DNA from: Termitidicoccus mucosus
Lineage (GTDB): Bacteria; Verrucomicrobiota; Verrucomicrobiia; Opitutales; Opitutaceae
Assembly (NCBI RefSeq): GCF_038725785.1
Contig: NZ_CP109796.1
Span: forward strand, 806,001 to 870,000
Direction: 5' to 3'
Length of the DNA stretch: 64,000 bases
The notes beneath the pieces are model-generated. The model ran no database searches. It worked only from the letters and a program-made list of their open reading frames with translations, and was not told the origin of the DNA. This document shows, one piece after another, positions 8,743 to 64,000 of this stretch; positions within the stretch are counted from its first letter, which is position 1; the number at the start of each line of letters is the position of its first letter. The position numbers and the translations under genes are program-made.

Positions 8743-10730
8743 AAACGGGAAACCAATGGCTCCGCGCTTTTGGTGGAGGGCCGAGCTCCCGCGAGGCCGT
8801 CGTGGTTGAACGCAGCATTTTCCGGCGACGGCCTCGCGGGAGCTCGGCCCTCCATAAGTCCAGGCGCACACAGGAATGTCCGTGCAACTTTTCCAGCCTC
8901 CTCGCCGTGTTCGCGACCGTCCTCACGTTGACGGTCCCGGTGGTGCGCGCGGCGGAGATCGCCGCGGCGGATTTCGGCGTGCGGCCGGGGACGAAGGAGG
9001 ATTGCACGCAAGCGGCGCGGGCGGCATTGCGCGCGCTCATGGCCGCGCCGGACGGCGGCACGCTGGTGTTCGCGCCGGGCGAATATCATTTTTATCCGGA
9101 GCACGCGCGCCCGCTCGTGCGCTACGTCTCGAACCACGACAACAGTCGCGCGCCGCGGCGTTTTGTCTTTGACCTGAGCGGCGCGAAAGCCGTCACCATC
9201 GACGGACGCGGCGCGCGTTTCGTGATGCACGGAAACGTGACGCCGTTCTTGATCGAGGAATCCGAAACCGTGCGCGTGCGCGACATCGTCATCGACTGGT
9301 CGCCGCCGTTGCTCTACGAAGGCGAAGTGCTGGCGGCGGACGCGCGCGGCTTCGAGGTGCGCGTGCCCGCGGACGAACCGTTCGAGGTGGATGCCGGGGC
9401 GTTCGTGATTCGCGCCGACGGCGAGCGGCTGCCGATGGACTCGTGGTGCGAGTTCGCCGCGGACGGAAGCGGCCAGGCGGCGGGCTCCGGCGACACCTAT
9501 GGGTTTCGTTATCACGCGACGCAAACGGGAGCGCGCACGGTGCGCTTCGACGTGACCGGCGGCGGCGCGCTGCGGCGGCCCCCGGCGGTGGGCAATATCG
9601 TTTTCCTGCGCTGCAACCTGCGCGCCGCGCCCGCGTTTTTTCTGGAAAAATCAAAAAACGTTTCGCTGGAAGCCATCACCGTGCATCACGCGCCGGGCAT
9701 GGGATTGCTGGCGCAGCGCTGCGAGGACGTGACGCTGCGGCGCTTCTCCGTCGTGCCGAGCGAAAAGGCGGGCCGCCAGGTCTCGACCAACTACGACGCC
9801 ACGCACTTCGTCGGCTGCCGCGGGCGCGTGCTCATCGAGGACGGCGAGTTTCGCAACATGCTCGACGACGCCATGAACGTCCACGGCGTTTACCTGCAAG
9901 TCCTGCGCCGCATGGATGACCGCCGCCTGCTGGCGCGGATGGCGCATTTCCAGGCGCAAGGATTCACCGTCGTCGAGCCGGGCGACCGCGTGCGGCTGGT
10001 GAGCCAGGGCACGCTCATGCCCGCCGCCGAGGCCGTCGTCACGCGCGTGGAACGGCGCGGCCCCGACGGGCTGCTGCTCGCATTCGACGGGCCGCTCGCG
10101 GAAAAAGCGGAGCCGCTCGACGCGCTCGAAAACATCTCGTGGACCGCCGATGTGGTCTTCCGCCGCAACCGCGTCTCGGGCAACCGCGCGCGCAGCATCC
10201 TCGTGAGCACGCAGGGGCGGGTCGTGATCGAGGACAACGTCTTCAACGCCACCGGCTCGGCCATCCGCGTGTCGGGCGATGCGCGCAGTTGGTTTGAGTC
10301 CGGCCCGGTGGCCGACGTGCTCATCAAGGGCAACACGTTCCTCAACCCGATGCGCTGCGCCTACGGGCAGGCCGCCATCGACCTCGACCCGGAAGTCGAG
10401 ACGCCGCCCGGCGCGGGATTTTATCATCGCAACATCCGCATCCTCGAAAACCGCTTCCGTCTCTGCGACACCGGCGTGCTGCTCGCGCGTTCCGTGCACG
10501 GGCTGGAGTTTTCGGACAACGTCATCGACTACGCCGACGACTTCCCTGCGCTCAACCGGCAGGCGACGGCGTTCGAGCTGGTCCACTGTCGTGACGCTCG
10601 GCTGGAGCGCAACCGCATCAGCGGGCGCGCCGGCGCGGCCGTGCTCACCGCCGACCCCGCCAGCGCGGCGGCCACGCATGTCGCGCCGGGACAAGCCATC
10701 GTCGTGCGCGCGGAACCCGCGAGCCCATGA
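8739..10730 (+). CDS. GH110-like exo-alpha-1,3-galactosidase (right-handed beta-helix)
   Basis: The ORF begins with an ATGA overlap on the GH97 stop. The hydrophobic signal peptide (SLLAVFATVLTLTVPVVRAAE) appears only after about 50 residues, most of them encoded by the REPIN at 8775-8853. GTG at 8907 is the alternative start and would give a short conventional signal. The mature protein has repeated beta-helix rungs (VRVRDIVIDWS, VVIEDNVFNATGSAI, VLIKGNTF) plus the GH110-type motifs LDDAMNVHG and RSWFESG. GH110 enzymes remove terminal alpha-1,3-linked galactose. Pairing with a GH97 supports a galactan or host-glycan substrate. Family assignment is good; the start is uncertain. Confidence 0.75.
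   Translation: MKTGNQWLRAFGGGPSSREAVVVERSIFRRRPRGSSALHKSRRTQECPCNFSSLLAVFATVLTLTVPVVRAAEIAAADFGVRPGTKEDCTQAARAALRALMAAPDGGTLVFAPGEYHFYPEHARPLVRYVSNHDNSRAPRRFVFDLSGAKAVTIDGRGARFVMHGNVTPFLIEESETVRVRDIVIDWSPPLLYEGEVLAADARGFEVRVPADEPFEVDAGAFVIRADGERLPMDSWCEFAADGSGQAAGSGDTYGFRYHATQTGARTVRFDVTGGGALRRPPAVGNIVFLRCNLRAAPAFFLEKSKNVSLEAITVHHAPGMGLLAQRCEDVTLRRFSVVPSEKAGRQVSTNYDATHFVGCRGRVLIEDGEFRNMLDDAMNVHGVYLQVLRRMDDRRLLARMAHFQAQGFTVVEPGDRVRLVSQGTLMPAAEAVVTRVERRGPDGLLLAFDGPLAEKAEPLDALENISWTADVVFRRNRVSGNRARSILVSTQGRVVIEDNVFNATGSAIRVSGDARSWFESGPVADVLIKGNTFLNPMRCAYGQAAIDLDPEVETPPGAGFYHRNIRILENRFRLCDTGVLLARSVHGLEFSDNVIDYADDFPALNRQATAFELVHCRDARLERNRISGRAGAAVLTADPASAAATHVAPGQAIVVRAEPASP
8775..8853. repeat. 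REPIN, family A (GGAG head, TCCC loop)
   Basis: Two inverted copies of a REP-like unit are separated by about 23 bp. Each unit reads GGAG, then GGCCGAGC, loop TCCC, GCGAGGCC. The hairpin has outer GGCC/GGCC pairs, a tandem G-A/A-G mismatch and an inner GC/GC pair. The arms (about 28 bp each) are fully complementary. The element lies within the 5' part of the open frame of the GH110-like gene. Confidence 0.8.
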
Positions 10731-10801
10731 CGCTCTCTCCGAAAAACATCCGGTCTATCCGCCCGATTTGTCGTGTCATGCCATTTATGAACAAGCTTGT
10801 C

Positions 10802-10878
10802 CCATTGGGTAGGGCGAGGCGTCCCGCCGAGCCGCAAGCCGCCAACGGCTCGGCGGGACGCCTCGCCCTACCCAATGG
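10802..10878. repeat. REPIN, family B copy 1 (GTAG head, GTCCC loop)
   Basis: Perfect 33-bp arms begin with CCATTGGGTAGGGCGAGG and enclose an 11-bp spacer. Each arm holds GTAG, then GGCGAGGC, loop GTCCC and GCCGAGCC, again with a tandem G-A/A-G mismatch inside the stem. The core recurs at 42719-42783. It lies between the GH110-like and SGNH hydrolase genes. Confidence 0.85.
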
Positions 10879-10977
10879 CAGCTGTGGCGCCATTTTTATT
10901 CGTAAATGACGTCAGTCCCATCACTCCCATCGCACTCCCGTCCGCCCGCCGTTTTTATACTCATGCACTCATTCATC

Positions 10978-12342
10978 ATGACTGCCTCCCGCCTCCCTCG
11001 ATTCATCAGCGCCGCGTTCGCGCTCCTTTTGTGCGGAGCCATGCTTCGCGCCGCCGCGCTGCCGCCGGAGTTTTCCGCGCGCGACGGCCTGCCCAATGCC
11101 CGCGCCAAGGCACTCGCCGGCGGCCAGGTGCGCGTGGCGTTTCTCGGCGGCAGCATCACCGCCGCCAACGGCTGGCGCGTGCACACGCTGGAAATTTTGC
11201 GCGGTGTTTTTCCCAAGGCTGCTTTCACCGAAATCTATGCCGCCGTTTCCGGCACGGGCTCGAACTACGGCGCGGCGCGGCTCCAGCGCGATGTCCTCCG
11301 GCACAAACCCGACCTGCTCTTCGTCGAATTTGCCGTGAACGACAGCGGCCAGCGGACCGACGCCATCGCCGCGCAAATGGAAGGCATCGTCCGCCAGACT
11401 TGGGCGGCCTCGCCGGGCACCGACATCTGCTTCGTTTACACCCTCACGATAAACATGCTCGAACGCATCAAGGCCGGCGAATATCCGCCCTCCGCCGCCG
11501 CCATGGAAAAAGTCGCCGCGCATTACTGCATCCCGTCCGTGCAGTTCGGCGTCGAGGTGGCGCGGCGCGACGAGGCAGGCACGCTCGTTTTTCACGCCCC
11601 CTCGTCCGTGAAAGCCGACGCCGCGGGCAACGACGCGCAAGGCCGCCTCATTTTCACGCGCGACAAAACCCACCCGACCGACGCGGGCCACCGCATTTAC
11701 GCGGCCACGCTCAAACGCACGCTTCCGCCAATTCTGGAAACCGGCCGGCCCGGCCCGCATGCCATCGCCGCTCCGCTCACGGCGGACAATTGGCAGCGCG
11801 CTCAACTCGTCACCATCCCGGACTCCGCCGCCACGGCGCAGGCCGCTTCCGCATGGCGCAAACTCGCCCCCCGCGACACCGTCGCCGCGCAAGCCGGGAG
11901 CATGGCGCCGCCCATCTGGGTCGCGTTCACTCCGGGCGCCACCGCGGAATTCCGTTTCAAAGGCACGCGCATCGGGCTCATCGGCCTGAAAGGCGCCGAC
12001 AACGGGAAATTCCGCTGTTTCATCGACGGCCAGCCTGTCGCCACGGACACGCTCTTCGACTCGTTTTCCACCCCGGGCCGCCATCCGCTGAAACCGTGGT
12101 TTTTCCAGAACATGCTCTCCGATTCCGAGCACACCGTGCGCATCGAGCTTCTGGCCGAAAAAATCAACAAGGCCGCCATCATGAAAAAGGCCGGAGTCAA
12201 CGTCGCCGACCCGACGCCCGACGCCGTCACCAGCGCCGGTGCCGGGACCTCCGCCTACGACGGCCACGTGCTCTACCTGTGCGGCTTCCTGATCGTGGGC
12301 GAGCCAGTCGCCGCCCCCGTGCTCACCGCGCCGGCTCCTTGA
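10978..12342 (+). CDS. secreted SGNH/GDSL-family hydrolase (carbohydrate esterase type)
   Basis: With ATG at 10978 (alternative 10963) the 454-residue product has a signal peptide (RFISAAFALLLCGAMLRAAA). An SGNH domain follows: block I is VAFLGGSITAANGW with the serine nucleophile in GGSI, the oxyanion Asn lies in the FVEFAVNDSG region, and the catalytic Asp-His pair is in DKTHPTDAGH. A C-terminal beta-sandwich (about residues 270-454) could bind substrate. Such enzymes deacetylate xylan, rhamnogalacturonan or similar glycans. The exact substrate cannot be read from sequence. It sits among glycoside hydrolases, which supports a polysaccharide esterase role. Confidence 0.8.
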   Translation: MTASRLPRFISAAFALLLCGAMLRAAALPPEFSARDGLPNARAKALAGGQVRVAFLGGSITAANGWRVHTLEILRGVFPKAAFTEIYAAVSGTGSNYGAARLQRDVLRHKPDLLFVEFAVNDSGQRTDAIAAQMEGIVRQTWAASPGTDICFVYTLTINMLERIKAGEYPPSAAAMEKVAAHYCIPSVQFGVEVARRDEAGTLVFHAPSSVKADAAGNDAQGRLIFTRDKTHPTDAGHRIYAATLKRTLPPILETGRPGPHAIAAPLTADNWQRAQLVTIPDSAATAQAASAWRKLAPRDTVAAQAGSMAPPIWVAFTPGATAEFRFKGTRIGLIGLKGADNGKFRCFIDGQPVATDTLFDSFSTPGRHPLKPWFFQNMLSDSEHTVRIELLAEKINKAAIMKKAGVNVADPTPDAVTSAGAGTSAYDGHVLYLCGFLIVGEPVAAPVLTAPAP

Positions 12343-12469
12343 TGCACACGGGATATTCCCCGGCCCGGCGCCCCGCCTGCGCGTCAATCGGCGGTCAATC
12401 GCGTGACAGTTGCGAAAATTCGGCGGCGAACGGCTTGCGCGGACCGCGGCGCAAGGCATGCTCGTCCGC

Positions 12470-12491
12470 GGGGAGCGCATCCGCGCTCCCC
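12470..12491 (+). promoter_or_regulatory. REP-like hairpin just before the nucleotidase start
   Basis: GGGGAGCGC, loop ATCC, GCGCTCCCC form a 9-bp perfect stem with a four-base loop. It ends 11 bp before ATG 12503 and is followed by GTTTGTT. The GGAG plus ATCC loop resembles the REP grammar seen elsewhere. It could be an attenuator or a leader structure limiting initiation. Confidence 0.5.
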
Positions 12492-12502
12492 GTTTGTTCC
12501 CG

Positions 12503-14164
12503 ATGAAACATCACCCGCATTTCCCGCGTTCCGGCCTCGTCGCCCGGCTCGCGCTCGCCGTCATCCTCGGATTCTCCGCCGCGTGGCTCGCTGCCGCCGG
12601 GACAACTGTCAAGGTCACCGTGCTTTCCACCACCGATTTGCACGGCCGCGTGTATCCCGTCGATTACTACACCGGCAAGGCCGCCGAGGTCGGCCTTGCC
12701 AAGATCGCCACGCTCGTCCAGCGCGAGCGCAAGGACGACCCGGACCTGCTGCTCATCGACTGCGGCGACACCATCCAAGGCACGCCCATGGTCTATTATC
12801 ATAACCGCAGGCACAACGAGCCGACCGATCCGATGATGCTCGCGATGAACTCGCTCCGCTACGACGCGATGGTCCCGGGCAACCACGAATACAACTTCGG
12901 CCTGGCCGTGCTCCAAAAGGCGCGCTCCGAGGCCTCGTTTCCCTGGCTCTCCGCCAACACCATCGCCAAGTCCACCGGCAAGCCCGCCTACGACCCCTAT
13001 CTCGTGAAGGAAGTCCGCGGCGTGCGCATCGGCATTCTCGGCCTGACCACGCCCGGCATCCCGCGCTGGGAGGACCCGGAGCACTACGCGGGACTCGAAT
13101 TCCTCGAAACCGTCGGCGTCGCGGAAAAATACGTGCGCATCCTCCGCGAGCAGGAACACGTGGATGCGGTTGTCGTCGCCATGCACATGGGCATCGACGG
13201 CGATCCCGCGCTCGTCGAGCCCGCGAGCCCCCTGCGTCCCGCCGCCGAAAACGCCGCGCTCGCCATCGCGCGCCAAGTGCCGGGCATCGACCTGATTCTC
13301 ATGGCGCACACGCACCGCACCGTGTCCGCGCTCTCCGCCAACGGGGTGCTCCTGACCCAGGCCGGATACTGGGGCAACCATCTGGTGAAGGCGGAGTTGT
13401 TCTTTGCGCAGGAGGAATCCGGCGGATGGAAACTCCAGGCCAAGTCCGCCCGCGCCCAACCTGTCCACGCCGGCATCCCCGCCGACGAGGCCATCCTCGC
13501 GCTCATCCGCCCTTATCACGACGAGGCCCAGGCCTGGCTTGACACCAAGATCGGCGTCAGCGCGCGTGCCCTCGATGCGCGGGAAGGCTCGCTGCGCGAC
13601 ACCGCGCTCATCGACCTCATCCAGCGCGTGCAACTCGAAACCGGCCAGGCCGACGTGTCGCTCGCCGCCAACTACAACCGCAGCGCCTTCATTCCCGAGG
13701 GCGACGTGACGGTGCGCGACATCGCCGCGATCTACGTCTATGAAAACACGCTCTACGTCGTCGAAATCACGGGCGCGCAACTGAAAGCCGCGCTCGAGCA
13801 TGCCGCCGGATTCTTTCTCCCCTACGAACCCGGCAGGACGCCCGCCCAACTCATGAACCCGGAAATCCCCGCCTACAATTTCGACATGGCCGCGGGCGTC
13901 TCCTACGAGATCGACCTCCGCCGCGCGCCCGGCGACCGCATCCGGAACCTTGTTTTCAAAGGCGAGCCGCTCGCGCCCGGCCGCAAGCTCCGTCTCGCGA
14001 TCAACAACTATCGCTACAACGGCGGCGGCGGCTACACCATGCTCAAGGGCGCGCCGGTGTTGATGCGTTCCGGCGCCGAGATCCGCGACCTCATCATCGA
14101 CTGGGTGACCAAAAACAAAACCATCCCCGCCGAGCCGGATAACAACTGGCGCATCGTGCATTGA
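12503..14164 (+). CDS. secreted bifunctional metallophosphatase/5'-nucleotidase (UshA/CpdB family)
   Basis: From ATG at 12503 the 553-residue protein has a signal peptide (LVARLALAVILGFSAAWLAAAG) and the calcineurin-like metallophosphatase core. The dinuclear metal motifs are STTDLHGRVYP, DCGDTIQGTP, GNHEYNFG, AMHMGIDG and MAHTHRT. The C-terminal half is the 5'-nucleotidase substrate domain (YNRSAFIPEGDVTVRDI, NNYRYNGGGGYTML). The family hydrolyses nucleoside 5'-monophosphates or 2',3'-cyclic nucleotides in the periplasm to release phosphate and nucleosides. Which activity dominates cannot be told here. The open frame upstream of 12503 has no signal-like start. Confidence 0.9.
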   Translation: MKHHPHFPRSGLVARLALAVILGFSAAWLAAAGTTVKVTVLSTTDLHGRVYPVDYYTGKAAEVGLAKIATLVQRERKDDPDLLLIDCGDTIQGTPMVYYHNRRHNEPTDPMMLAMNSLRYDAMVPGNHEYNFGLAVLQKARSEASFPWLSANTIAKSTGKPAYDPYLVKEVRGVRIGILGLTTPGIPRWEDPEHYAGLEFLETVGVAEKYVRILREQEHVDAVVVAMHMGIDGDPALVEPASPLRPAAENAALAIARQVPGIDLILMAHTHRTVSALSANGVLLTQAGYWGNHLVKAELFFAQEESGGWKLQAKSARAQPVHAGIPADEAILALIRPYHDEAQAWLDTKIGVSARALDAREGSLRDTALIDLIQRVQLETGQADVSLAANYNRSAFIPEGDVTVRDIAAIYVYENTLYVVEITGAQLKAALEHAAGFFLPYEPGRTPAQLMNPEIPAYNFDMAAGVSYEIDLRRAPGDRIRNLVFKGEPLAPGRKLRLAINNYRYNGGGGYTMLKGAPVLMRSGAEIRDLIIDWVTKNKTIPAEPDNNWRIVH

Positions 14165-16631: not shown

Positions 16632-16653
16632 CAAATGCCAAGAGCGAAGTAAC

Positions 16654-16779
16654 AAGTATCAAGTGACAAGTGACAAGAATCACACCATGTCCTCTTCCCC
16701 GTCCCGCCCTCTCCCGCCTCCTCGTCACGCCGCCCAAGTATCCGACATCTTGATACCTGTCACTTGATACTTGTCACTT
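16654..16779. repeat. heptad-word inverted repeat (AAGTGAC/AAGTATC)
   Basis: The left arm consists of 7-bp words AAGTATC, AAGTGAC, AAGTGAC, and the right arm is their inverse (CTTGATAC, CTGTCA, CTTGATACTTGTCACTT). About 70 bp lie between the arms. The same words recur inside the rsmA coding region at 61670-61703. The repeat fills the gap between the ATPase and permease genes. Confidence 0.75.
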
Positions 16780-16787
16780 CCCTCCCC

Positions 16788-18060: not shown

Positions 18061-18117
18061 GTAGCGCAGGCATCCCTGCCTGCCGTCGAAAAAGAAGGCG
18101 CGAAGCGCCGCTGACTC
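18061..18117. repeat. REP element, family F half copy
   Basis: The unit has a GTAG head, stem GCAGGC, loop ATCCCT, GCCTGC, then the inner hairpin GGCGCGAAGCGCC. Only the left half of the full family-F element (see 32665-32801 and 55896-56023) is present. It lies between the convergent permease and metW genes. The left flank GCGCGGCAGCGCGCC is shared with the copy at 43624. Confidence 0.75.
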
Positions 18118-20950: not shown

Positions 20951-21074
20951 CAGACAGAATGAACGACCGCCGCGTGCCGACGGTCGTCCCATTATTATCG
21001 TGTTGGGTATTTTGGCTTTTGGCCTGCCAGCCCATGAGGCATCCCACGGCATGGCAATGCCCATTCACAGGCGC

Positions 21075-21167
21075 GGCTCGACGCAAGGTCGAGCCCTACG
21101 GGCACTGTCGCACCAGCGGCATTCCGCGGCGGCGTTGGCACCGTAGGGCCTGACCTTGCGTCAGGCC
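21075..21167. repeat. REP pair, family E (heads facing inward, CTTGC loop)
   Basis: The two units are GTAG plus GGCCTGAC-CTTGC-GTCAGGCC (right) and, inverted, GTAG plus GGCTCGAC-CTTGC-GTCGAGCC (left). The stem bases differ between the units but remain paired in each, a compensatory change. The pair sits between the convergent small membrane protein and phosphodiesterase genes, in a 250-bp gap with nothing else visible. Confidence 0.8.
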
Positions 21168-21200
21168 GCGAACCGCCCTTCCTGTGGGACGGCGGTGGTT

Positions 21201-23706: not shown

Positions 23707-23747
23707 GAGGCCAGCCGGAGCGGCGGGGACACCGCCGCTCCGGCTGG
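23707..23747. repeat. long REP-like hairpin, family G
   Basis: Perfect 18-bp arms (GGCCAGCCGGAGCGGCGG and complement) surround a 5-base loop, GGACA, which reads TGTCC on the other strand. On that strand the inner part is GGAG plus CGGCGG-TGTCC-CCGCCG plus CTCC, matching the REP grammar. It lies between icd and the XRE-cupin gene and could also act as a terminator for icd. Confidence 0.75.
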
Positions 23748-23775
23748 CCGCGTAACCTCTCCTTCGTAAATGGCC

Positions 23776-30072: not shown

Positions 30073-30206
30073 GGGCATTTTTCGTTCAATTGATCGCAAA
30101 CAAGGCGGAGGGACGGCCTCCGTGCCGTCCGGTTTGGGTGAGCGCGGACGACACGGAGGCCGTCCCTCCAAAAACCATATGCGACGGAATAAACGAAAAA
30201 TGCTCT
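30073..30206. repeat. nested inverted repeat carrying REPIN family D
   Basis: The inner REPIN (30107-30169) has two GGAG units with stem GGACGGC, loop CTCCGT and GCCGTCC in inverted orientation. It is enclosed by a second imperfect inverted repeat, GCATTTTTCGTT and AACGAAAAATGC. The REP unit recurs singly at 42791-42813. The two-layer structure suggests insertion of a REPIN into an existing hairpin, or one composite element. Confidence 0.8.
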
Positions 30207-32595: not shown

Positions 32596-32664
32596 ATCAA
32601 GCTCAATATTTGCAAGAAAGGGATCCCGCACGGGTGTGGAGTGGCGGGACGGACACGGACGCGC

Positions 32665-32801
32665 CGGCACGTGGCGCAGGCATCCTGCCTGCCGTCGATC
32701 CATTATCGCGCGAAGCGCGGCATTTGTTTTTTGAAAGGAGAGTCAGCGGCGCTTCGCGCCTTCGGTTCTGCTGGCAGGCAGGATGCCTGCGCTACGTGCC
32801 G
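32665..32801. repeat. REPIN, family F full copy
   Basis: The outer arms carry GTGG or GTAG heads, stem GCAGGC, loop ATCCT and GCCTGC, with about 28 complementary bases. Inside are hairpins GCGCGAAGCGCGGC and GGCGCTTCGCGCC around a T-rich stretch. The lacI-family gene ends inside the right arm, and its TAG stop is the GTAG head. Confidence 0.85.
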
Positions 32802-33877
32802 GGCCGCGCGGGGCGCAGGCAGCGGCAGGACCGGCGCTTCACGAAATCGGGGATGATGAGATATTCCTTCCGCAACGCGCCTCGCGCGGCCCGGAGCTTG
32901 CGCGTGCCGAGTTGCGTGGCGAGCAGGGTGAGGGTCTCGACCACGCGGGGAATGTGCACGTCGAAGGTGGTCAGCGGCGGGTCCAGCTCGGAGGTGACCG
33001 CGAGGTTGTCGTAGCCGATCAGGCTGATGTCGTCCGGCACGCGGAGCCCGGCGTCGCGCGCGGCCTTGCGCCCGCCGATGGCGAGCCAGTCGGAGGCAAA
33101 AATAACGGCCGAGGGACGGACTCGTTTTTTGAGGAGCGGCAGCACGGCGGCGCACGCGCCGTCCTTGTTGCAGGCGGCGGCGTCCAGCGCGACAACCCAC
33201 TCCGGGCGGACGGGCAGGTTGAACTCCGCCATCGCCGCCGGGAACGTTTCCAGATAGTTGTGGAAATACTGCTCGCCCGAGGGCCCCGTGACCATCGCGA
33301 TGCGCTCATGGCCGAGCGCGGCGAGATACTGCACCGCCATGCCACAACTGCGGCTCGTGTCGGCCATGAGCGACACCTGGTCCTCGTGCGCCGAGCGCTT
33401 GTCGTAGAGGATGGCGGGGATGCCCAGCCCGTGCGCGACGTCAAACGCCGGCGCCTCGAAGTGCCCGTAAAACAGTCCCACGTCCACGCCTTCGGCCTGG
33501 GCGCGCAGTTCCTCGTCGTCCTTGTAATAGAGCACGCGCAATTCCGCGCCGTGCTCCGCCAGGCTGGCGCGCAGGGCCTCGATGAGATTGAGCGCGGCGG
33601 GGTTGATCTCGCGGTTCGGCCCGTAGTAGGGGGCGAAAAAAAGCCCGAGTTGAAGCGAGGGGCGGTGGCGCAGCCGGCGGGCGGCGCCATTGGGCAGAAA
33701 ATTGTGTGCGCGCGCCGCCTCCAGCACGCGGCGGCGGGTGTCGGGGTTCACCCCGTAGCGGTTGTTGAGCGCCCGCGAGACGGTGCCGATGCTCACGCCG
33801 ACGAGGCGGGCGAGGCTCTTGATATCGACCGGGGCGGAGGCGGCGGACGGGACGGGGGCTTTGGATTTTGCAGCCAT
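32792..33877 (-). CDS. LacI-family transcriptional regulator
   Basis: I prefer ATG at 33877, since the alternative at 33934 overlaps the operator. The 361-residue protein starts MAAKSKAPVPSAASAP and has the LacI HTH (VDIKSLARLVGVSIGTVSRALNNRYGVNPDTRRRVLEAA). The periplasmic-binding-protein-like sensor domain follows (LGLFFAPYYG, GIPAILYDKRS, HERIAMVTGPSGEQYFHNYLETF, PSAVIFASDWLAIGGRKAARDAGLRVPDDISLIGYDN). It probably represses GH35 and the divergent large secreted protein through the TCGTAAACGTTTACGA palindromes, with a sugar as inducer. The C-terminal residues CRCLRPARPGT are encoded by REPIN sequence. Confidence 0.9.
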   Translation of the reverse strand: MAAKSKAPVPSAASAPVDIKSLARLVGVSIGTVSRALNNRYGVNPDTRRRVLEAARAHNFLPNGAARRLRHRPSLQLGLFFAPYYGPNREINPAALNLIEALRASLAEHGAELRVLYYKDDEELRAQAEGVDVGLFYGHFEAPAFDVAHGLGIPAILYDKRSAHEDQVSLMADTSRSCGMAVQYLAALGHERIAMVTGPSGEQYFHNYLETFPAAMAEFNLPVRPEWVVALDAAACNKDGACAAVLPLLKKRVRPSAVIFASDWLAIGGRKAARDAGLRVPDDISLIGYDNLAVTSELDPPLTTFDVHIPRVVETLTLLATQLGTRKLRAARGALRKEYLIIPDFVKRRSCRCLRPARPGT

Positions 33878-42718: not shown

Positions 42719-42783
42719 AGGTAGGGCGAGGCGTCCCGCCGAGCCGCGAGCGCCAACGGCTCAGCGGGACGCCTCGCCCTACC
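42719..42783. repeat. REPIN, family B copy 2
   Basis: The arms AGGTAGGGCGAGGCGTCCCG and complement enclose a short spacer. The element is nearly identical to the copy at 10802-10878 in the core, with one arm base changed (GGCTCAGC for GGCTCGGC), but lacks its CCATTGG flanks. It lies between convergent GH106-like and hisH genes. Confidence 0.85.
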
Positions 42784-42790
42784 TAAACCT

Positions 42791-42813
42791 GACGGCACGG
42801 AGGCCGTCCCTCC
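42791..42813 (-). repeat. single REP unit, family D
   Basis: On the minus strand it reads GGAG, GGACGGC, loop CTCCGT, GCCGTC, matching one arm of the 30107-30169 REPIN. It directly follows the family B REPIN, so two unrelated REP families are stacked in one gap. Confidence 0.7.
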
Positions 42814-43623: not shown

Positions 43624-43751
43624 GTAGCGCAGGCATCTTGCCTGCCGTCGAAAACGAAGGCGCGAAGCGCCGCTGATTTTTCTTTCCCTTGAAAAAGTGC
43701 AGCGCTTCGCACGACCTCTGGGTGACGGCAGGCACGGACGCCTGCGCCACG
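43624..43751. repeat. REPIN, family F diverged copy
   Basis: The left arm has GTAG, GCAGGC, loop ATCTT, GCCTGC and the GGCGCGAAGCGCC hairpin. The right arm (GACGGCAGGCACGGACGCCTGCGCCAC) is diverged. The left flank GCGCGGCAGCGCGCC is shared with the half copy at 18061. It lies between tonB and hisH. Confidence 0.75.
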
Positions 43752-47264: not shown

Positions 47265-47377
47265 ATCTTTCTTCTTTCCTCTTTCTCTTTCTTCTTTCTC
47301 CCATCGCGAAAGAGGACCGGGAGAAAACGCATGCCCTGAAATGAGAAAGATAAAGAGGAAAGAAGAAAGAGAAAGAT
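47265..47377. repeat. low-complexity inverted repeat (CTTTCTTC/GAAAG words)
   Basis: The left arm (47265-47300) is a run of TCTTTC, TTCTTTCC, TCTTTC words and the right arm (47343-47377) is the purine complement. The spacer is 42 bp and includes CGCGAAAGAGG. The same words occur at 37502-37580. It occupies the gap between the ATPase and membrane-protein genes, and its right arm ends 7 bp before the ATG. Confidence 0.75.
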
Positions 47378-53073: not shown

Positions 53074-53110
53074 CGGTAAGGAGGCCTCTCCGAGGCAGGC
53101 CTCCCTACCG
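53074..53110. repeat. REP-like hairpin, family I
   Basis: Arms CGGTAAGGAGGCCT and AGGCCTCCCTACCG differ by one base and surround a 9-bp centre. An inner hairpin GCCT, loop CTCCG, AGGC again has a TCC loop after GGAG. It lies 25 bp after the orphan gene stop. Confidence 0.6.
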
Positions 53111-55878: not shown

Positions 55879-55895
55879 GGCGACCGGCCCGTGGC

Positions 55896-56023
55896 GTAGC
55901 GCAGCATCCTTGCCTGCCGTCAAAACAGAAGGCGCGAAGCGCCGCTGACTTTTTCTCTCCTTCCCAAAAGAATGCCGCGCTTCGCGCGACCATTTTCGAC
56001 GGCAGGCAATGATGCTGCGCTAC
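55896..56023. repeat. REPIN, family F full copy with changed arms
   Basis: The left arm is GTAG, GCAGCATCCTTGCC and the right arm is its inverse with one mismatch. Both arms carry the same deviation from the family (CAGCAT for CAGGCAT). Inner hairpins GGCGCGAAGCGCC and GCGCTTCGCGC flank a T-rich centre. It separates the convergent receptor and hisB genes. Confidence 0.85.
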
Positions 56024-56077
56024 GGACGGCTGGCGCGGGGTCGCTGGCATCCGCTTCCTGTCGCGCCCGGGGAGCGG

Positions 56078-57994: not shown

Positions 57995-59350
57995 ATGTTC
58001 AAGCTTCAGGAAAACAAAACCACCGTCAGCCGCGAGCTTCAGGCCGGGCTGACCACGTTTGCCGCGATGGCCTACATCCTCGCGGTCAACCCCGCCATCC
58101 TCGCCAACAGCTACGGCGCCGGCATGAACCAGGCCGCGCTCGTCACCATCACCGCGCTCAGCGCCGCGACCGCGACCATCCTGATGGCGCTCATGACCAA
58201 CTACCCCCTCGCGCTCGCGCCGGGCATGGGCATCAACGCCATGTTTTCCTTCTACATTTGCGGCCAGCTCCAGGTTCCGTGGAGCGATGCGCTTGGCATG
58301 GTCTGCATCAACGGCTGCATCTTCCTGCTCCTCTCGCTCACCGGCGTGCGCGAGCGCATCGTGAAGGCGATCCCGCATTCGCTCAAGATCGCCATCACCT
58401 GCGGCATCGGCATGTTCATCGCGTTCATCGGCCTGAAAAACGCCGGTGTGATCGTGAGCAACCCCGCCACATTTGTCGCGGCCGGCGATTTCACCGGCGG
58501 CTCCGCCGCGCTCTGCCTCGCGGGCATCGTGCTCATCGCCATCCTCGTCGCGCGCCGCGTGCCTGGCGCCATCGTCATCGGCATTCTCGCCATCACCATC
58601 GTCGGCGCGTTTGTGACCGGCACCCCGGCCACCGGCGCCGAGCCCGCCAAAATGGTTACGCAACTGCCGGGCTCGCTCGCGGGCTTTTTCAGCCTGCCCT
58701 CCTCGCCCGAGCCCCACTTTCTCAAGCTGACCTTCGGCTTCCTCACCACCAAGGCCGCGTTCTTCGCCGCGCTGCCCGTCATCCTCACGCTCCTGCTCAT
58801 CGACATGTTTGACAACATCGGCACGCTCATCGGCGTGACCAAGCGCGCCGGCTTCCTCGACAAGGACGGCAACCTCCCCAAGGTCGGCCGCGCCCTCGTG
58901 GCCGATTCCATCGCCGCCATCCTCAGTTCGCTCTTCGGCACGTCCACCGTGGTCAGCTACGTCGAGTCCGCTTCCGGCGTCGAGGCCGGCGGACGCACCG
59001 GCCTCACCTCCGTCACGACCGCCGTGCTCATGCTGCTGGCGCTTTTCCTCACGCCACTCATCCTCGCCATCCCCGCCGCCGCAACCGCGCCCGCGCTCGT
59101 GATCGTCGGCGTCTTCATGATGCAGTCCGTGATCGAAATCAAAATGGAGGACTTCGCCACCGCCGTGCCGGCCATCCTCACCATCTTCGCGATTCCGCTC
59201 ACGTTCAGCATCGCCGAGGGCATCGGCATCGGCCTCATCAGCGCCGTGCTCCTCGCCGTGTTCACCGGCAAGGCCCGCTCCATCTCCCTTGTCGGCTACG
59301 CGATCGCGGTTATATTCTTTCTCCAATTCTTCAAGATCTTCCCATTCTAA
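57995..59350 (+). CDS. NCS2-family nucleobase permease (AzgA-like, guanine/hypoxanthine type)
   Basis: This 451-residue protein has about 13 hydrophobic segments. AzgA-type motifs are RELQAGLTTFAAMAYILAVNPAILA, ALAPGMGINAMFSFYICG, ITCGIGMFIAFIGLKNAG, LLLIDMFDNIGTLIGVTKRAGFLDKDGNLPKVGRALVADSIAAI and GTSTVVSYVESASGVEAGGRTGLTSV. The family imports purine bases with protons. Its neighbour is a GTP-cyclohydrolase-like gene, so the pair may deal with purine or pyrimidine metabolism. Confidence 0.9.
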   Translation: MFKLQENKTTVSRELQAGLTTFAAMAYILAVNPAILANSYGAGMNQAALVTITALSAATATILMALMTNYPLALAPGMGINAMFSFYICGQLQVPWSDALGMVCINGCIFLLLSLTGVRERIVKAIPHSLKIAITCGIGMFIAFIGLKNAGVIVSNPATFVAAGDFTGGSAALCLAGIVLIAILVARRVPGAIVIGILAITIVGAFVTGTPATGAEPAKMVTQLPGSLAGFFSLPSSPEPHFLKLTFGFLTTKAAFFAALPVILTLLLIDMFDNIGTLIGVTKRAGFLDKDGNLPKVGRALVADSIAAILSSLFGTSTVVSYVESASGVEAGGRTGLTSVTTAVLMLLALFLTPLILAIPAAATAPALVIVGVFMMQSVIEIKMEDFATAVPAILTIFAIPLTFSIAEGIGIGLISAVLLAVFTGKARSISLVGYAIAVIFFLQFFKIFPF

Positions 59351-59352
59351 AA

Positions 59353-59370
59353 GGCGGCGGCTGCGCCGCC
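59353..59370 (+). terminator. GC hairpin after the permease gene
   Basis: GGCGGC, loop GGCTGC, GCCGCC lies 3 bp after the stop codon and is followed by an AT-rich stretch (AGTTTAAG). It is plausible as a weak terminator. Confidence 0.45.
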
Positions 59371-59443
59371 AGTTTAAGTCTCAAGTTTAAGTTTAAGCCC
59401 ACCCCTTCGCATTTTAACTTCAACTTAAACTTCAACTTCAACT
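59371..59443. repeat. low-complexity inverted repeat (AAGTTTAAG words)
   Basis: Left arm AGTTTAAGTCTCAAGTTTAA and right arm CTTCAACTTAAACTTCAACT are built of short AAGTTT/AACTTC words. They are separated by about 22 bp. It lies between the permease and cyclohydrolase genes. Confidence 0.65.
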
Positions 59444-59489
59444 GCCCGCGCAGCGACATCCTTCGCGGCCCGATAAACCCGCCCGTCCC

Positions 59490-61100
59490 TTGAGCAAAAT
59501 CGTCAAATTCACCACCCTCCAAAACACCGCCGCCGCCCGCGCCGCCGAGCCGGGCGGCGTGCCTGACTTTGCCACGCTTATCCGCGAGTTCCAGCACGGC
59601 TTCGGCAGCGCCCGCTCGCCCGGCTCGCCCGACGACCGCCCGCTCTACGGCCAGACCCTCTACATCGCGAGTTGTGCGCTCGACATGCGCTTCGGGGCGT
59701 TCCGTGCGCACATTTTCCAGGACATCATCGACAAGCACTACATCATCGCGCTCGTCCACGGCGACATCTGCGGCGCGGAAACCCTTTACACCCGGCTTCA
59801 CTCTTCCTGCGTCACCAGCGAAACGCTCCGCGGCATCGACTGCGACTGCGTCCAGCAACTCGAAGGCGCCCTCGAAGTCATCGCGAAAAAAGGCCGCGGC
59901 ATCCTCTTCTACCTCATGCAGGAAGGCCGCGGTGTCGGTTACACCGGCAAGGCCCGCGACCGCATGCTCGTGCAGGCCTCGCTTGACCAACTCGACACCT
60001 TCCAGGCCTACGCCGCCATGGGCCTGCGCAAGGACCACCGCAACTACGACAACATCTCGCACATCTGCCATCTCCTCGGCATCACCGCCTCGTTCATCGT
60101 CCTCACCAACAACCCCGACAAACTCGACGCCCTTCGCGCTCAGGGCATCAACGTCGTCGCCGCCGAGCCCATCGAGTTCGAGCCCTCGCCGTTCAACCTC
60201 TCCTACCTCACCTCGAAGGCCACCGGCGGCCATCACCTCACCCGCCCCGCCGCCTCCGACATCGAGCGCGCCCTGCCGCCCGAGCCCGTCACCGCCTTCC
60301 GCCCGCACGCCCTCGCCCACGCGCGCCGCTTCATCTACGCGGCGAGTTATTTCCTGCCCATCAAGCCCGTTGACAACGAGATCCTGCTCAACGCCGCCCA
60401 GTTTCCCAAAATCTTCCCCGACGGCACCCTTGAACGCCATCTGACCGGCCCCCGCCCGCTCATCACCGGCTACCGGCTTATCCGCAACAACCGCTTCTTG
60501 GTCCGCATCGACAAGCCCGCCCTCGTCACCCATGCCCGCGCGCATCCCGACGATCCCGTGACCGGCCTCCTCACCACGCCCTACTGGTTCCGCACCCACG
60601 TTTACTACGACATCGTCACCAGCCAGGACTTCGTCGTCCTCACCCACGGCGCGCCCGGCCTCGCCGACATCCCCGTCATCCGCATCCACAGCGAATCCCT
60701 CTTCAACCGCTTTCCGCTGCGCGCCGTCGCCAACCGCGACAAAATGAAGCAGTCCATTCACCACATCGTCACCTACGGCGTCGGCGCGATGCTCCTTCTC
60801 CATAACGACGGGCGCGGGGCCGGCTTCGGCGCCTACGCGACCGACCGCATGATGTCCGAGACCGGCCAGGCGCTTTCCACCGACGAAGCCTACCGCAAGC
60901 TTGGCGTGGGCTACGACAGCCGCGACTACGACGCCGCGATGCTTCTCCTGCGCCACCACATACCCAACGAAAAAATCCAGATGATCATGAACTCCCCGGC
61001 GAGCCTGGTGAAAAAAAACGAATACGCCGCCGCGCTCAACGCCCACAAGTTCGACATCGAGAAATGGATCTTCCTCGACGACCATGCGGACGAAAAGTGA
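59490..61100 (+). CDS. tandem-domain GTP cyclohydrolase II-like protein
   Basis: The start is TTG at 59490; 536 residues. The N-terminal GCH2 domain keeps the zinc cysteines (C107 in RLHSSCVTS, C118 and C120 in DCDC), GRGILFYLMQEGRGVGY, and the catalytic Asp182/Arg184 in KDHRNY. A second domain (about residues 325-520) repeats the plan but has S403 instead of the first cysteine (RIHSESLF), lacks the CDC pair (NRDKMKQSI), and keeps DGRGAGF and D476/R478. Ordinary RibA is about 200 residues with one domain. A riboflavin role or a URC1-like pyrimidine-catabolism role (suggested by the adjacent nucleobase permease) are both open. Confidence 0.8.
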   Translation: MSKIVKFTTLQNTAAARAAEPGGVPDFATLIREFQHGFGSARSPGSPDDRPLYGQTLYIASCALDMRFGAFRAHIFQDIIDKHYIIALVHGDICGAETLYTRLHSSCVTSETLRGIDCDCVQQLEGALEVIAKKGRGILFYLMQEGRGVGYTGKARDRMLVQASLDQLDTFQAYAAMGLRKDHRNYDNISHICHLLGITASFIVLTNNPDKLDALRAQGINVVAAEPIEFEPSPFNLSYLTSKATGGHHLTRPAASDIERALPPEPVTAFRPHALAHARRFIYAASYFLPIKPVDNEILLNAAQFPKIFPDGTLERHLTGPRPLITGYRLIRNNRFLVRIDKPALVTHARAHPDDPVTGLLTTPYWFRTHVYYDIVTSQDFVVLTHGAPGLADIPVIRIHSESLFNRFPLRAVANRDKMKQSIHHIVTYGVGAMLLLHNDGRGAGFGAYATDRMMSETGQALSTDEAYRKLGVGYDSRDYDAAMLLLRHHIPNEKIQMIMNSPASLVKKNEYAAALNAHKFDIEKWIFLDDHADEK

Positions 61101-61287
61101 CAAGGTGAAAATCCCAAATCACGAAATCCCTTCCGAGCGAAGCGAGAAGCCTGACAATTCCAAAAAAATTCCAATGGAAGAAATCCCAAATCTCAAAAGA
61201 GCGCGGCGCCGCTCTCCTTTGTTTTTTTTGAAATTTGGATATTTGGAATTTTTTTTGTGATTTGGAAATTTGTGATTTGGAAATTTC
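61099..61287. repeat. low-complexity inverted repeat (AAATCCCAAATC/GATTTGGAAATTT words)
   Basis: The left part has AAATCCC, AAATCAC, GAAATCCC, AATTCCAA and similar words; the right part has GAAATTTGG, ATTTGGAATT, GATTTGGAAATTT. Arms are imperfect. It begins at the end of the cyclohydrolase gene and fills most of the 229-bp gap before rsmA. Confidence 0.65.
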
Positions 61288-61329
61288 CCCGCAGCCATTC
61301 CATTCCTTTTCCACCGCCCAGCCTCCCCG

Positions 61330-62229
61330 ATGCCGCTCTCGCCCTCAGCCACGCGCGAATTGCTCGCGAAACTCGGACACCATCCGAAACGCTTCCTCGG
61401 GCAAAACTTCCTTGTCGATGGCAACATTGTCCGCAAATCCCTCGAACTCGCCCGCATCGCCCCCGGCGACATCGTGGTCGAAATCGGCCCCGGCCTCGGC
61501 ACGCTGACCTCCGCCCTGCTCCGCGCCGGCGCGACCGTGTGGGCCGTGGAAAAAGACCGCGCGCTCCACGCCCACCTCGCCGCCACGCTCGCCCGCGAGT
61601 TTCCCGAAACCTTTCACCTCCTCGAAGGCGACGCCGTCGAGCACCCGATCGCCGGACTGCCGTCCGGCGAAGTGACAAGTGACAAGTATCAAGTGGCAAG
61701 TGAAGCGTCCGGCACGGCAGCGCCCCACTCCGCAGCCCGCACTCCGCCGCCCGCCTTCAAGATCGTCGCCAACCTCCCCTATGCCATCTCGACCCCTTGG
61801 ATGGACGCGATCCTCGGCGGCCCGCTGCCCGCGCGCATGGTGCTCATGCTGCAACAGGAAGCCGCCCAGCGCTACGCCGCCACGCCCGGTTCGAAACAAT
61901 TCAGCGCCATCTCGATTTTCCTGCAAAACGCCTACGATCTCGCCCCCGGCCACAAAGTCGCCGCCGCCTGCTTCCATCCGCGCCCCGAGGTCGAGTCCTG
62001 CCTGCTTCACCTCGTGCGCAAATCCGAGCCCTTCGTGTTTTCCCCGCAGGCGAAGGCCGCCATCCGCGCCTGCTTCCAGCAACGCCGCAAGCAACTCGGC
62101 GCGCTCCTGCGCAACCGCCTGCCCGACCACGGCCGCGCCTGGCTCGACACCCTCGCCGCCCACGGCCACGACGCCCGCTCCCGCCCCGAGCAAATCCCGC
62201 CCGCGCTCTGGACCGCGCTCGGCCGATGA
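61330..62229 (+). CDS. rsmA: 16S rRNA dimethyladenosine transferase with repeat-derived insertion
   Basis: The 299-residue KsgA-type enzyme has KRFLGQNFLVDGNIVRKSLELA, SAM motif VEIGPGLGTLTSALL, motif VWAVEKDR, the catalytic NLPYAIST, and the C-terminal FHPRPEVESCLLHL. It dimethylates two adenosines in 16S rRNA helix 45. Residues about 112-141 (EVTSDKYQVASEASGTAAPHSAARTPPPA) lie just before the FKIVANLPY strand, where the family normally has a short loop. Part of this insert is encoded by the AAGTGAC repeat words at 61670-61703. Confidence 0.93.
   Translation: MPLSPSATRELLAKLGHHPKRFLGQNFLVDGNIVRKSLELARIAPGDIVVEIGPGLGTLTSALLRAGATVWAVEKDRALHAHLAATLAREFPETFHLLEGDAVEHPIAGLPSGEVTSDKYQVASEASGTAAPHSAARTPPPAFKIVANLPYAISTPWMDAILGGPLPARMVLMLQQEAAQRYAATPGSKQFSAISIFLQNAYDLAPGHKVAAACFHPRPEVESCLLHLVRKSEPFVFSPQAKAAIRACFQQRRKQLGALLRNRLPDHGRAWLDTLAAHGHDARSRPEQIPPALWTALGR
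61670..61703 (+). repeat. heptad-word repeat inside rsmA
   Basis: Words AAGTGAC, AAGTGAC, AAGTATC, AAGTGGC, AAGTG follow each other in frame within rsmA. They are the same as in the intergenic repeat at 16654-16779. It encodes SDKYQVAS in the protein. Confidence 0.75.
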
Positions 62230-62433
62230 CCCGGAAGTGATGCCGCCCGTTTTCCAAGTCTTTCTTCTTGGCAGACTCCCGCCTCGCCCGAAACTCTTTC
62301 CGCCCAGCCATGTCCATTTGCAGGGAGGGAAACCGGGCGATGACACCGCCGCCGATTTCACACCTGTTTTCTCGCGCTTGAAAAAGCCGCCCGCGTCTTC
62401 ATTACTTTTTCCTTTCGTTCGAAACTCCACTCT

Positions 62434-63192
62434 ATGACCATCCGCCGCCTGATCACTCCCGGCATTCTTGCCTGCATTTCCCTCCTTCTTCCGGTCGCGC
62501 ACGCCCAAACCCCTTCCCCGGCGGCGGCGGACCTCCCTGACGAGGAGCCGAATCCGCTCGTCGGCCGCATCACGGGCAAGACCTACTACGCGCCCGGCGA
62601 CGTTTACCACATGAGCATTCCCGTGCTGCCGGAACTCGGCGGCACGGTCGAGGACACGCCGACCACCGTCACATTCCAGGACGCGTTCGACACCTTCGTC
62701 CTCGTAGGCTGCGTGCAGTTGGACACCGCCATGACCGCCGACGACCACCTCCGCGGGCGCAAGGATTTCCTCACTTCGTTTTTCACCACCCATCTCCAGC
62801 CCGACATCCAGCGCGCCCTGCCCGGCTCGCGGGTGGAAAAAGCCCTCTTCCTCCGCGAACGGGAAGGCGGCGCGCTGCTCGTTTACATGCTTCTCCCCGG
62901 CGGCTCCATGTTCAACGACCTGATCTTCATCCCCAGCTACGAAAGGCCCCCGGTCGCCAAGCGCGGCAACCTGCTCTTCGTGAAAAACGGCTACGTCTTC
63001 ATCATCAGCACCGAACTCGCCGACAAAGTGCTCACGCGCACCACTTACAACAAAACCGAGGGCGAGGAGAACACCATCCTGCGCCAGTCCCTGCTCAACA
63101 CCCTCGATCGGATCACCTTCACCATGCCGCCGGTGAGCGCCACGCCCGCCTCGGGAACGTCCGCAGCGACCCCGTCCGCGCCGGCCCGGTGA
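62434..63192 (+). CDS. secreted protein of unknown function
   Basis: The 252-residue protein has a signal peptide (LITPGILACISLLLPVAHAQT) and a soluble domain with KTYYAPGDVYHMSIPVLPELGGTVEDTPTTVTFQDAFDTFVLVGCVQL, then YMLLPGGSMFNDLIFIPSYERPP and a Pro/Ala/Ser-rich tail. I recognise no family. It lies 26 bp upstream of the lptE-like gene and is probably co-transcribed with it, which hints at an envelope role. The 204-bp gap before it shows nothing. Confidence 0.65.
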   Translation: MTIRRLITPGILACISLLLPVAHAQTPSPAAADLPDEEPNPLVGRITGKTYYAPGDVYHMSIPVLPELGGTVEDTPTTVTFQDAFDTFVLVGCVQLDTAMTADDHLRGRKDFLTSFFTTHLQPDIQRALPGSRVEKALFLREREGGALLVYMLLPGGSMFNDLIFIPSYERPPVAKRGNLLFVKNGYVFIISTELADKVLTRTTYNKTEGEENTILRQSLLNTLDRITFTMPPVSATPASGTSAATPSAPAR

Positions 63193-63217
63193 GCCCGCGC
63201 ACCCGCGACGCCGCCCC

Positions 63218-63784
63218 ATGCATCAGGAAAACAACTACACCCCGTCCTCCCGTTTTCGCATCCTCGCCTGCTTCGCCGCGGTCGCGTGCCTCCTGCTGTC
63301 GGCCGCCTGCTCGCACTACCGGCTGGGGACGGGCGGCACGCTCGCCTTCTCCACGCTCTACGTCGCGCCGGTGGAAAACGAGGCCAATCTCCCTCAGGGC
63401 GCCGCGCTTTTTTCCACGCAACTCCGCGAGGCCTTCCTGCGCGACAGCCGGGTGACGCTGGTCAACGACCCCGCCTCCGCCGATGCCACGCTCACCGTGG
63501 AGCTTGTCCGCCTCGACCGCGCCATGACGAGCGCGCGCACCTACGACACCGGCCTCGCGCGCAAGTTCGACCTCACGCTCGCCTCGCGCTGCACGCTCCG
63601 CGACAACCGCGCCGGCAGGCTCCTCATCGACAAGCGTCCCGTCACCGCCACCCGCCAGGTTTTTTCGACCCCCGCGCCCGCCGCCACGCAAAGCGACCAA
63701 CTCCAGGCCGAATACAACACCATGCCGCTCCTCGCCGGCGCGCTCGCGGAAAACATTTCCCACGCCGTGCTGGACGTGTGGTGA
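63218..63784 (+). CDS. lptE: LptE-like LPS-assembly lipoprotein
   Basis: The 188-residue protein has a lipobox LSAAC (cysteine at about residue 31) followed by SHYRLGTGGTLAFSTLYVAPVENEANLPQGAALFSTQLREAFLRDSRVTLVNDPASADATLTVEL. The Y-R-L-G, 'L.V.PV.N' and 'L...L...F..D.R..LV' pattern is typical of LptE-family lipoproteins, which plug the LptD pore in the outer membrane for lipopolysaccharide export. LptD is not in the window. The similarity is by pattern, so the symbol is a proposal. Confidence 0.75.
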   Translation: MHQENNYTPSSRFRILACFAAVACLLLSAACSHYRLGTGGTLAFSTLYVAPVENEANLPQGAALFSTQLREAFLRDSRVTLVNDPASADATLTVELVRLDRAMTSARTYDTGLARKFDLTLASRCTLRDNRAGRLLIDKRPVTATRQVFSTPAPAATQSDQLQAEYNTMPLLAGALAENISHAVLDVW

Positions 63785-63861
63785 ACGACGCGGCGGTGGT
63801 GTGGGAGGCGGGGAGACACCACCCGCCGCGGATGCGACCGGAAGTGAAATCAGCCCCGTGT

Positions 63862-64000
63862 TGCCGCGGCAGCGACTGGGAGCGCCGGCTTCCAGCCGGC
63901 AGACGACGCGCAGCGTCGCCAAATCCACGGCGATCCACCCGTGCCATCCTACCCAAACCTTGCCGGCTGGAAGCCGGCGCTCCCAGTCGCTCACGCGGCA
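63862..64000. repeat. REPIN, family H (GGAG head, TTCCA loop), cut by the window edge
   Basis: Each unit reads GGGAGC, GCCGGC, loop TTCCA, GCCGGC, and the two lie in inverted orientation about 60 bp apart. Outer sequence AGCGACTGGGAG pairs with CTCCCAGTCGCT and TGCCGCG with CGCGGCA. The arm reaches base 64000, so the element may extend further. Confidence 0.8.

Follow-up and report, generated by a model that had tools for sequence, protein, structure and literature searches.

Scattered through a 64,000-nucleotide stretch of the Termitidicoccus mucosus genome (C1:806001-870000, the whole of which we call the window; the genome measures 7.92 Mb in two contigs at 62% GC) are hairpins whose stems differ but whose 5' heads and loops follow one plan, and the question raised by this locus is how so many stems came to share a single design. 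Such hairpins resemble repetitive extragenic palindromes (REPs) and REPINs, the inverted REP pairs that Bertels and Rainey are said to have described in 2011 as copied as units; both are short non-autonomous hairpins copied by RAYTs, REP-associated transposases of the HUH/Y1 type. Letters A to H denote here the families in the window, and I (CTTGCGCAAGGAGCGGCGGCGTCCC...) and J (GTGGCACGGGCGTCCCGCCCGTG) families outside it. We propose, at a probability of about 0.86, that the window hairpins are coexisting REP/REPIN families copied by RAYTs from about four lineages, families E, H and I keeping their RAYTs in this genome and families A, B, C, D, G and J being orphans; related transposases acting on single-stranded DNA probably recognise the common design, which would explain why the families have it.

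Dispersed families with a common head and loop

Whole-genome family counts came from pattern searches that allowed mismatches and took the reversed pattern as control, complemented by a small sample (864 kb, made up of the window and 40 stretches of 20 kb) and a large one (1.664 Mb, the window and 80 such stretches); since eight of these 80 had a transposase gene at their centre, the large sample is not fully random. At up to one mismatch the genome holds 150 copies of B, 104 of A, 104 of E and 169 of one degenerate pattern for J- and D-type units, and at up to two mismatches it holds 102 of C and 22 of G, every reversed pattern returning zero. The genome count supersedes a sample count for G (5, against 5 in a shuffle) in which a divergent window copy had been the query. 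Counts confined to the large sample gave 20 copies of D and 19 of H at up to six mismatches (none in one shuffle), and 13 of the F core GGAGCGGCGGYGTCCCCGCCGC at up to one mismatch, a setting run without a shuffle. All of A to H are dispersed short palindromes by these counts (D, F and H in the sample only), and a REP unit was read at each of the sites where the first-pass annotation of the window had placed its roughly eight families. The hairpin at 12470, entered there as a possible REP, is rejected as a single copy in the 1.664 Mb, where no copy has fewer than 3 mismatches of 22 and the nearest matches have 3-4.

Inverted pairs of families A to E, H, I and J face head-out in 82 of 83 distinct cases (83 of 84 before one double count was removed), or in 55 of 56 when both arms are held to four mismatches or fewer, which is the REPIN layout. 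The inverted pairing expected by the annotation is therefore general but has its exceptions: several window arms are single, the window E pair at 21075/21143 is the only inward-facing pair among 40 E pairs scored genome-wide, and F gives no pair among its 15 copies at up to two mismatches in the 1.664 Mb. When F was searched at up to six mismatches, 34 copies appeared (6 in the shuffle), forming ten pairs, all head-out, with arms only 71% alike; 28 of these 34 loose copies lie away from other families. Inverted repeats of all kinds, many of them not REPs, number 135 in the 864 kb and 3 in one shuffle.

The common design was examined on perfect GC-rich hairpins (stem of at least 7, loop of 3-6) in the 1.664 Mb, a reading being headed if G[TG][AG]G lies at most two bases 5' of the stem, and GGA in the loop counting as TCC on the wrong strand. 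The 846 hairpins give 199 headed strand readings, among which the loop carries TCC on the head strand in 106 and GGA in 3, as against 12 and 3 of the 73 headed readings in one shuffle; among the 1493 readings without a head, TCC occurs in 104 and GGA in 207, the latter including the opposite strand of most of the 106. A conserved tetranucleotide 5' of the hairpin foot is thus linked to a TCC loop on the same strand, and the shared head and loop described from the window alone are borne out. The tandem GA mismatch attributed to both A and B is present in both, although its depth is not quite the same, as read from the sequence: it follows 3 bp in A and 4 bp in B. The GGAG heads found here go beyond the GT[AG]G given in the available parts of PMC6006769.

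RAYT genes in this genome and in others

Seven genes of the genome match Pfam Y1_Tnp, and NCBIfam NF047646 at E<=10 gives 11 matches in eight genes. Three of these RAYT genes are bracketed by REPs: one at C1:276 kb stands among E units of three stem types, one at C1:1,041 kb between two inverted units of the H type that also forms the REPIN at the window end (its neighbours being leuB and alaS; these gene names, like leuS below, were read by eye), and one at C1:2,928 kb between family I units. Their NF047646 scores are 84.0, 76.7 and 73.7 bits, so that only the C1:276 kb gene passes the cutoff of 80, but all three pass Pfam Y1_Tnp and their translations carry, by eye, an HUH-type motif and a Y...NP region. 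The suggestion that several RAYTs stand behind the families is upheld by these three. The open reading frame (ORF) of the H-type RAYT (C1:1,040,965-1,041,303 region; L009, L049) crosses an H REP at either end, and the REP would consequently be translated (AGILPA near the N terminus).

At the other Y1 genes of the genome REP flanks were looked for and none was seen, which leaves A, B, C, D, G and J without an adjacent RAYT visible to these searches; the idea that each RAYT sits beside its own REP family accordingly holds here, among the families that could be assigned (all but F), for E, H and I only. A search of the genome with a B-type RAYT protein yielded distant matches only, the best being, at 33% identity, the E-type gene, and the weakest (E 0.29) a frame near leuS. 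Several further genes were considered as REP-linked RAYTs and set aside: two longer Y1 transposases (C1:3,973 kb and C1:6,629 kb; searched for a bridging REP, with none found), the RAYT-like gene at C1:3,855 kb (no REP shown) and the gene at C1:2,974 kb (which matches IS200). The first two belong with a gene at C1:4,356 kb (two frames, read by eye only) to a set of three related Y1 genes of ~340 codons, none with a REP flank seen, and two of the three have GGGACAGGT in common in their upstream sequence.

In the family of the compared genomes, which we take to be Opitutaceae, 54 of 61 genomes (this one included) have an NF047646 match at E<=1e-8, 36 of them above the model cutoff. A set of 118 RAYT loci (117 distinct) drawn from among these matches, 80 of them fetched by place in addition to those listed, was examined; flank orientation was weakly scored at 17 loci, five of which were reset in a strict caller, and this caller found matching REPs on both sides of the gene at 70 of the 118. 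Since it penalises mismatched stems and needs both flanks, three A-type loci, with their GA mismatch, failed it.

For every orphan family a cognate RAYT flanked by the same REP was found, in other genomes only. An exact A REP flanks a RAYT directly after leuS in a genome of the same genus (G061), and a compensated variant flanks one, likewise after leuS, in G002, the two proteins being identical at 101 of 148 residues; the end of leuS in the present genome matches at 93% identity, and in the sequence that follows it no RAYT was seen on reading and no NF047646 match was found. RAYTs flanked by C (in G027, in a variant also present exactly in this genome), by D and by G (both in G053) and by J (in G005, G024 and G060) were also found, and a hairpin similar to the inner hairpin of D elements adjoins the D-type RAYT of G053. 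Family B had one near match in the 60 sampled family members. When its degenerate 24-base unit was searched against the GTDB species collection, 50 stretches were returned: 29 in one Opitutia metagenome-assembled genome (MAG), 10 in one Phycisphaeraceae MAG, one in Phycisphaerales and 10 in other Verrucomicrobiota, including Lacunisphaera, Opitutus, Didemnitutus and Puniceicoccales MAGs. Scanning of these B loci (L215-L272) for RAYTs gave a match at four, and two of these RAYTs have B units on both sides, one in the Opitutia MAG (L262) and one in the Phycisphaeraceae MAG (L258); the two RAYTs are 52% identical, and the 24-base B form beside them is identical, GA mismatch included. Mis-binning of the MAGs carrying B units may be the source of this cross-phylum pattern.

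RAYT trees of 117 rows each were built by a quick method (L209, a repeat of L172, was dropped; in the second tree L107 and L051 were left out and two B-RAYTs added). The RAYTs group as A with G, B with C, D with H, I and J, and E with other CTTG-loop types; support is high for the 24 rows with D, H, I and J (95), for eight rows with B types (98) and for the A pair (99), and low for A with G (67), the B rows with L202 (63) and E with L174 (65). REP labels placed on 73 rows (L208, L114 and L119 by hand) change 17 times for loop, 13 for head and 32 for stem, against 31-38, 23-26 and 50-56 when labels were shuffled (six of 30 shuffles), which indicates that loop and head track RAYT ancestry and that the stem does so slightly less. 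Because the cognate RAYTs fall in about four lineages, with D, H, I and J in one, the families are not unrelated, as they had been called.

Stem variation, orphan families and competing explanations

Among the 100 matches listed, genome copies of E have the stem CCTG, CGCG, CTCG or CCCG, each with a matching partner strand, and when the right arm played no part in choosing the copies, 21 of 23 had a complementary middle triplet; the parts that mostly stay constant are GTAGGG, the CTTGC/T loop and the closing GAC/GTC. Three of the four stem types flank the single C1:276 kb RAYT. E pairs join two different stem types in 33 of 40 cases where 24.0 would be expected by chance pairing (P about 5e-5), an excess inflated by founder copying, as six CCTG-CGCG pairs with one spacing indicate. 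At the A-type RAYT loci (G061, G002, G059) the GA/GA mismatch is kept and inner stem bases switch with compensation. Given that E and A stems switch and that the B unit is identical beside diverged RAYTs, stem freedom may differ between RAYT lineages. One RAYT with relaxed stem recognition, as the first-pass annotation had suggested, therefore fits within E, whose four compensated stem types have head and loop in common; a fully relaxed RAYT is unlikely to explain the families in general, as other genomes hold separate RAYTs for A, B, C, D, G and J and the B unit is constant beside two diverged ones.

In the mechanism that we propose, about four RAYT lineages would have founded the families, and the signal read by each enzyme on single-stranded DNA would consist of the G[TG][AG]G guide 5' of the hairpin foot, the loop and irregularities of the stem; of the inner stem bases, at least in E and A, little more than pairing would be demanded. 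TnpA-REP is reported to bind single-stranded REP hairpins, with the tetranucleotide guiding cleavage and loop bases or an unpaired stem patch being required (PMC8266576 and PMC6006769, in their available parts). The hairpins described here agree in their anatomy with each of these features, GGAG heads included, in which the retained AG would presumably pair with a CT site; for the elements studied here, recognition and cleavage of single-stranded REPs by RAYTs is a prediction.

How the orphans have persisted bears directly on this proposal. In the sample, A, B and D copies equal their consensus in 15 of 36, 14 of 34 and 9 of 20 cases, and the RAYT-bearing families E, H and I in 5 of 26, 5 of 19 and 4 of 16; these figures depend on the consensus chosen, and that of E is lowered by its stem types. 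Copies at consensus are few in the varied orphans C (1 of 46) and J (2 of 77), so that decay of all orphan families as a sign of old RAYT loss is rejected and holds for C and J only. The distance between B arms is 55 bases in 13 of the 15 elements sampled, although from one element to another equal-length B spacers differ by 34%. Arms of B differ on average by 0.69 of 24 bases within an element and by 1.59 between elements (none of 5000 shuffles as low); the values are 2.67 and 3.07 for C (505 of 5000 shuffles as low) and 4.86 and 4.91 for A (2219 of 5000), the last not relied on, as variants are mixed at six mismatches. Changes unseen in other sampled elements are present in both arms of some, for example L090 (B) and L009:1738 (C). 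The uniform orphans and the B spacing could stem from long RAYT activity that ended in a recent loss of the gene, from mobilisation in trans or from correction between arms, and the data do not choose among these.

Mobilisation in trans would mean that the three resident RAYTs copy the orphan families, which have the head and TCC loop in common with H and I. We consider it a tentative alternative, somewhat unlikely overall: A and B are abundant, with many copies at consensus and no adjacent RAYT, head and TCC loop are common to several lineages, and one E RAYT locus has three stem types, but the RAYT groups of A and B are not those of the resident genes, the identical B unit beside RAYTs only 52% identical argues for specific reading of the whole hairpin, and recent RAYT loss accounts for the same facts, C and J being varied besides. 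Slightly less credible is hairpin-templated correction between the arms of a REPIN, under which near-perfect arms would say little about recent RAYT activity; the concordance of B arms and the private changes found in both arms are what it predicts, yet founder elements spreading as units predict concordance too, C and A are weak in the same test, and E arms are mostly unlike (33 of 40).

A host role, with the hairpins serving as transcription terminators, mRNA ends or gyrase sites and their plan kept by functional selection and not by mobility, appears improbable. REP roles of that sort have been published (PMC3733652, PMC6006769, in the parts available), long perfect hairpins at gene ends resemble terminators, and many window copies lie in gaps between longer ORFs (by eye, uncounted); the families are nevertheless dispersed, of fixed element length (as the B spacing illustrates) and bracket RAYT genes, and 5' of the stem they have a strand-specific head, for which a terminator has no use, although a secondary host role would still be compatible with copying by RAYTs. 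Chance, by which GC-rich hairpins in a 62% GC genome would happen to have GTAG/GGAG and TCC in common, can be dismissed almost entirely. Shuffled sequence does yield 73 headed readings, 12 with TCC, but the annotation's own points of failure, single-copy units and random hairpins equally endowed with head and loop, are contradicted by the multi-copy state of A to H, the zero reversed controls and the 106 TCC against 3 GGA on the head strand, so that chance is refuted for A to H as repeats and is possible for 12470.

Several observations weigh against copying by RAYTs of about four lineages followed by loss of some. Transposition is inferred from sequence, with no event observed; the strict caller rejected 48 of the 118 RAYT loci, some of which are at contig ends; and the RAYT tree was built by a quick method and has many branches of weak support. 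The synteny of the A-type RAYT holds on the leuS side only, and the contig of G061 ends within the gene; because this genome and G002 have, by eye, different genes downstream, loss of that RAYT here is inferred and not shown. That A, B and D are no more decayed than the RAYT-bearing families sits badly with an old loss. We nonetheless favour past copying by RAYTs as the explanation that best joins the dispersal of the repeats, their head-out pairing, the head-loop linkage, the RAYT flanks, the compensated E stems, the RAYT groups and the orphans without an adjacent RAYT.

Window elements, related systems and significance

Along the window, the first element is a family B REPIN at 8774..8854 (arms 8775-8798 on the plus strand and 8830-8853 on the minus strand), with a GGAG head, a tandem GA mismatch in the stem and a TCCC loop. 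Family A has REPINs at 10802..10878 (arms 10809-10833, plus, and 10847-10871, minus; GTAG head followed by GGC-GA-GGCG-TCC-CGCC-GA-GCC) and at 42719..42784 (arms 42721-42745, plus, and 42758-42782, minus), the second adjoined by a lone family C arm at 42790..42813 (minus). The family C REPIN at 30107..30169 (arms 30107-30130, plus, and 30146-30169, minus) has a GGAG head and a CTCCGT loop. Two family E arms occupy 21072..21170, with a CTCG stem at 21075 (minus) and a CCTG stem at 21143 (plus), their heads facing inward. Family F at 23709..23749 is a single 18-bp hairpin whose core GGAGCGGCGGTGTCCCCGCCGC (at 23717, minus strand) recurs as unpaired units and is close to the family I core; its reading as a REPIN, at 23707, is rejected. 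A family G arm at 53076..53096 (plus) has GTAA in place of GTAG and a truncated partner, and the family H REPIN at 63862..64000 (arms 63879-63900, plus, and 63962-63983, minus) is cut by the window end.

Family D is represented by a diverged arm at 18061..18084 (plus) with the 4-base loop TCCC, a REPIN at 32664..32802 (arms 32671-32693, with a GTGG head, and 32773-32795, minus), an arm at 43624..43646 (plus) with a TCT loop and, by eye, a decayed partner downstream, and a diverged REPIN at 55895..56024. A second, inner hairpin, GCGCGAAGCGCCGCTGA, follows the D arms or lies between them (18098, 32743, 43660 and 55932), the REPINs at 32664 (where they are inverted) and 55895 containing inner hairpins. 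Two other kinds of repeat were seen. AT-rich or pyrimidine-rich inverted pairs of short near-repeats (TTTCTTCTTTCCTCTTTATC, ATTACGAATTACGAAT, CACAAAGGCACAAAGG, AACCGCGAAGGACGCGAAG) have REPIN-like spacing without a GTAG head (L008-L047), for example at L010:17181-17322, L024:4416-4590 and window positions 16642-16784 and 47266-47370; and window positions 1-6500 contain several families of 35-45 nt direct repeats within long minus-strand ORFs, as expected for repeat-domain proteins.

REPs, REPINs, RAYTs, multi-family genomes, orphan families and stem switching are already published, and the papers compared here are cited from their available parts. Several GTAG families with inverted REP dimers, heterodimers, intragenic REPs, complementary stem changes and REP-flanked RAYTs were described in Opitutus terrae and others (Di Nocera et al. 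2013, PMC3733652), and the present genome is likewise verrucomicrobial with several GTAG families and REP-flanked RAYTs; unlike that account, GGAG heads stand here beside GTAG and GTGG ('GGAG' does not occur in its main text, consensus letters being outside this comparison), RAYTs of many family members are mapped to their adjoining REPs, and six families are without an adjacent RAYT. Among the matches listed in a literature search, mostly plain word matches, none beyond PMC3733652 concerned RAYTs of this family. In Pseudomonas and Stenotrophomonas, REP classes, several per genome, are tied to RAYTs, orthologous RAYTs with differing stems are called 'orthoswitch', and orphan classes are ascribed to RAYT loss or orthoswitch (Nunvar et al. 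2013, PMC3686654). Several classes per genome, orphans and stem switching recur here, in another phylum, but the orphans A and B equal or exceed the RAYT-bearing families in uniformity, and E has several stems beside one RAYT.

Biochemical work on Group 3 TnpA-REP found that GTAG and specific loop bases matter, that perfect stems are needed, and that an unpaired patch is of importance to the E. coli enzyme (Nucleic Acids Research 2021, PMC8266576). E agrees with this in its fixed head and loop and its variable but paired stem, as do A and B in keeping the GA mismatch, although that work concerned proteobacterial enzymes. REPIN populations are long-lived in one genome, and their RAYTs are reported to be vertically inherited, no evidence having been found for significant transfer at species level (Genetics 2021, PMC8049555); our pairs resemble those REPINs in being inverted REP pairs apparently copied as units, and depart from them in that an identical B unit occurs with a RAYT in MAGs labelled as two phyla. 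Should they hold, the novel points would be the uniform A and B populations without an adjacent RAYT and the sharing of this B unit between MAGs with different phylum labels.

With its E stem variants, the mismatch kept by A and B in two RAYT lineages, and families both with and without a resident enzyme, this genome offers a test set for how RAYTs read their substrates, and it makes testable both the persistence or movement of REPs without their own RAYT and the range over which REP/RAYT pairs travel between lineages. A bolder proposal, which we advance as a speculation unlikely to hold in full, is that a REP hairpin can outlive and outtravel its transposase; if this were true, the enzyme would lock in its hairpin strongly, REP/RAYT pairs would have spread between phyla, and orphan families would be sustained by non-cognate RAYTs that read the same head and loop.

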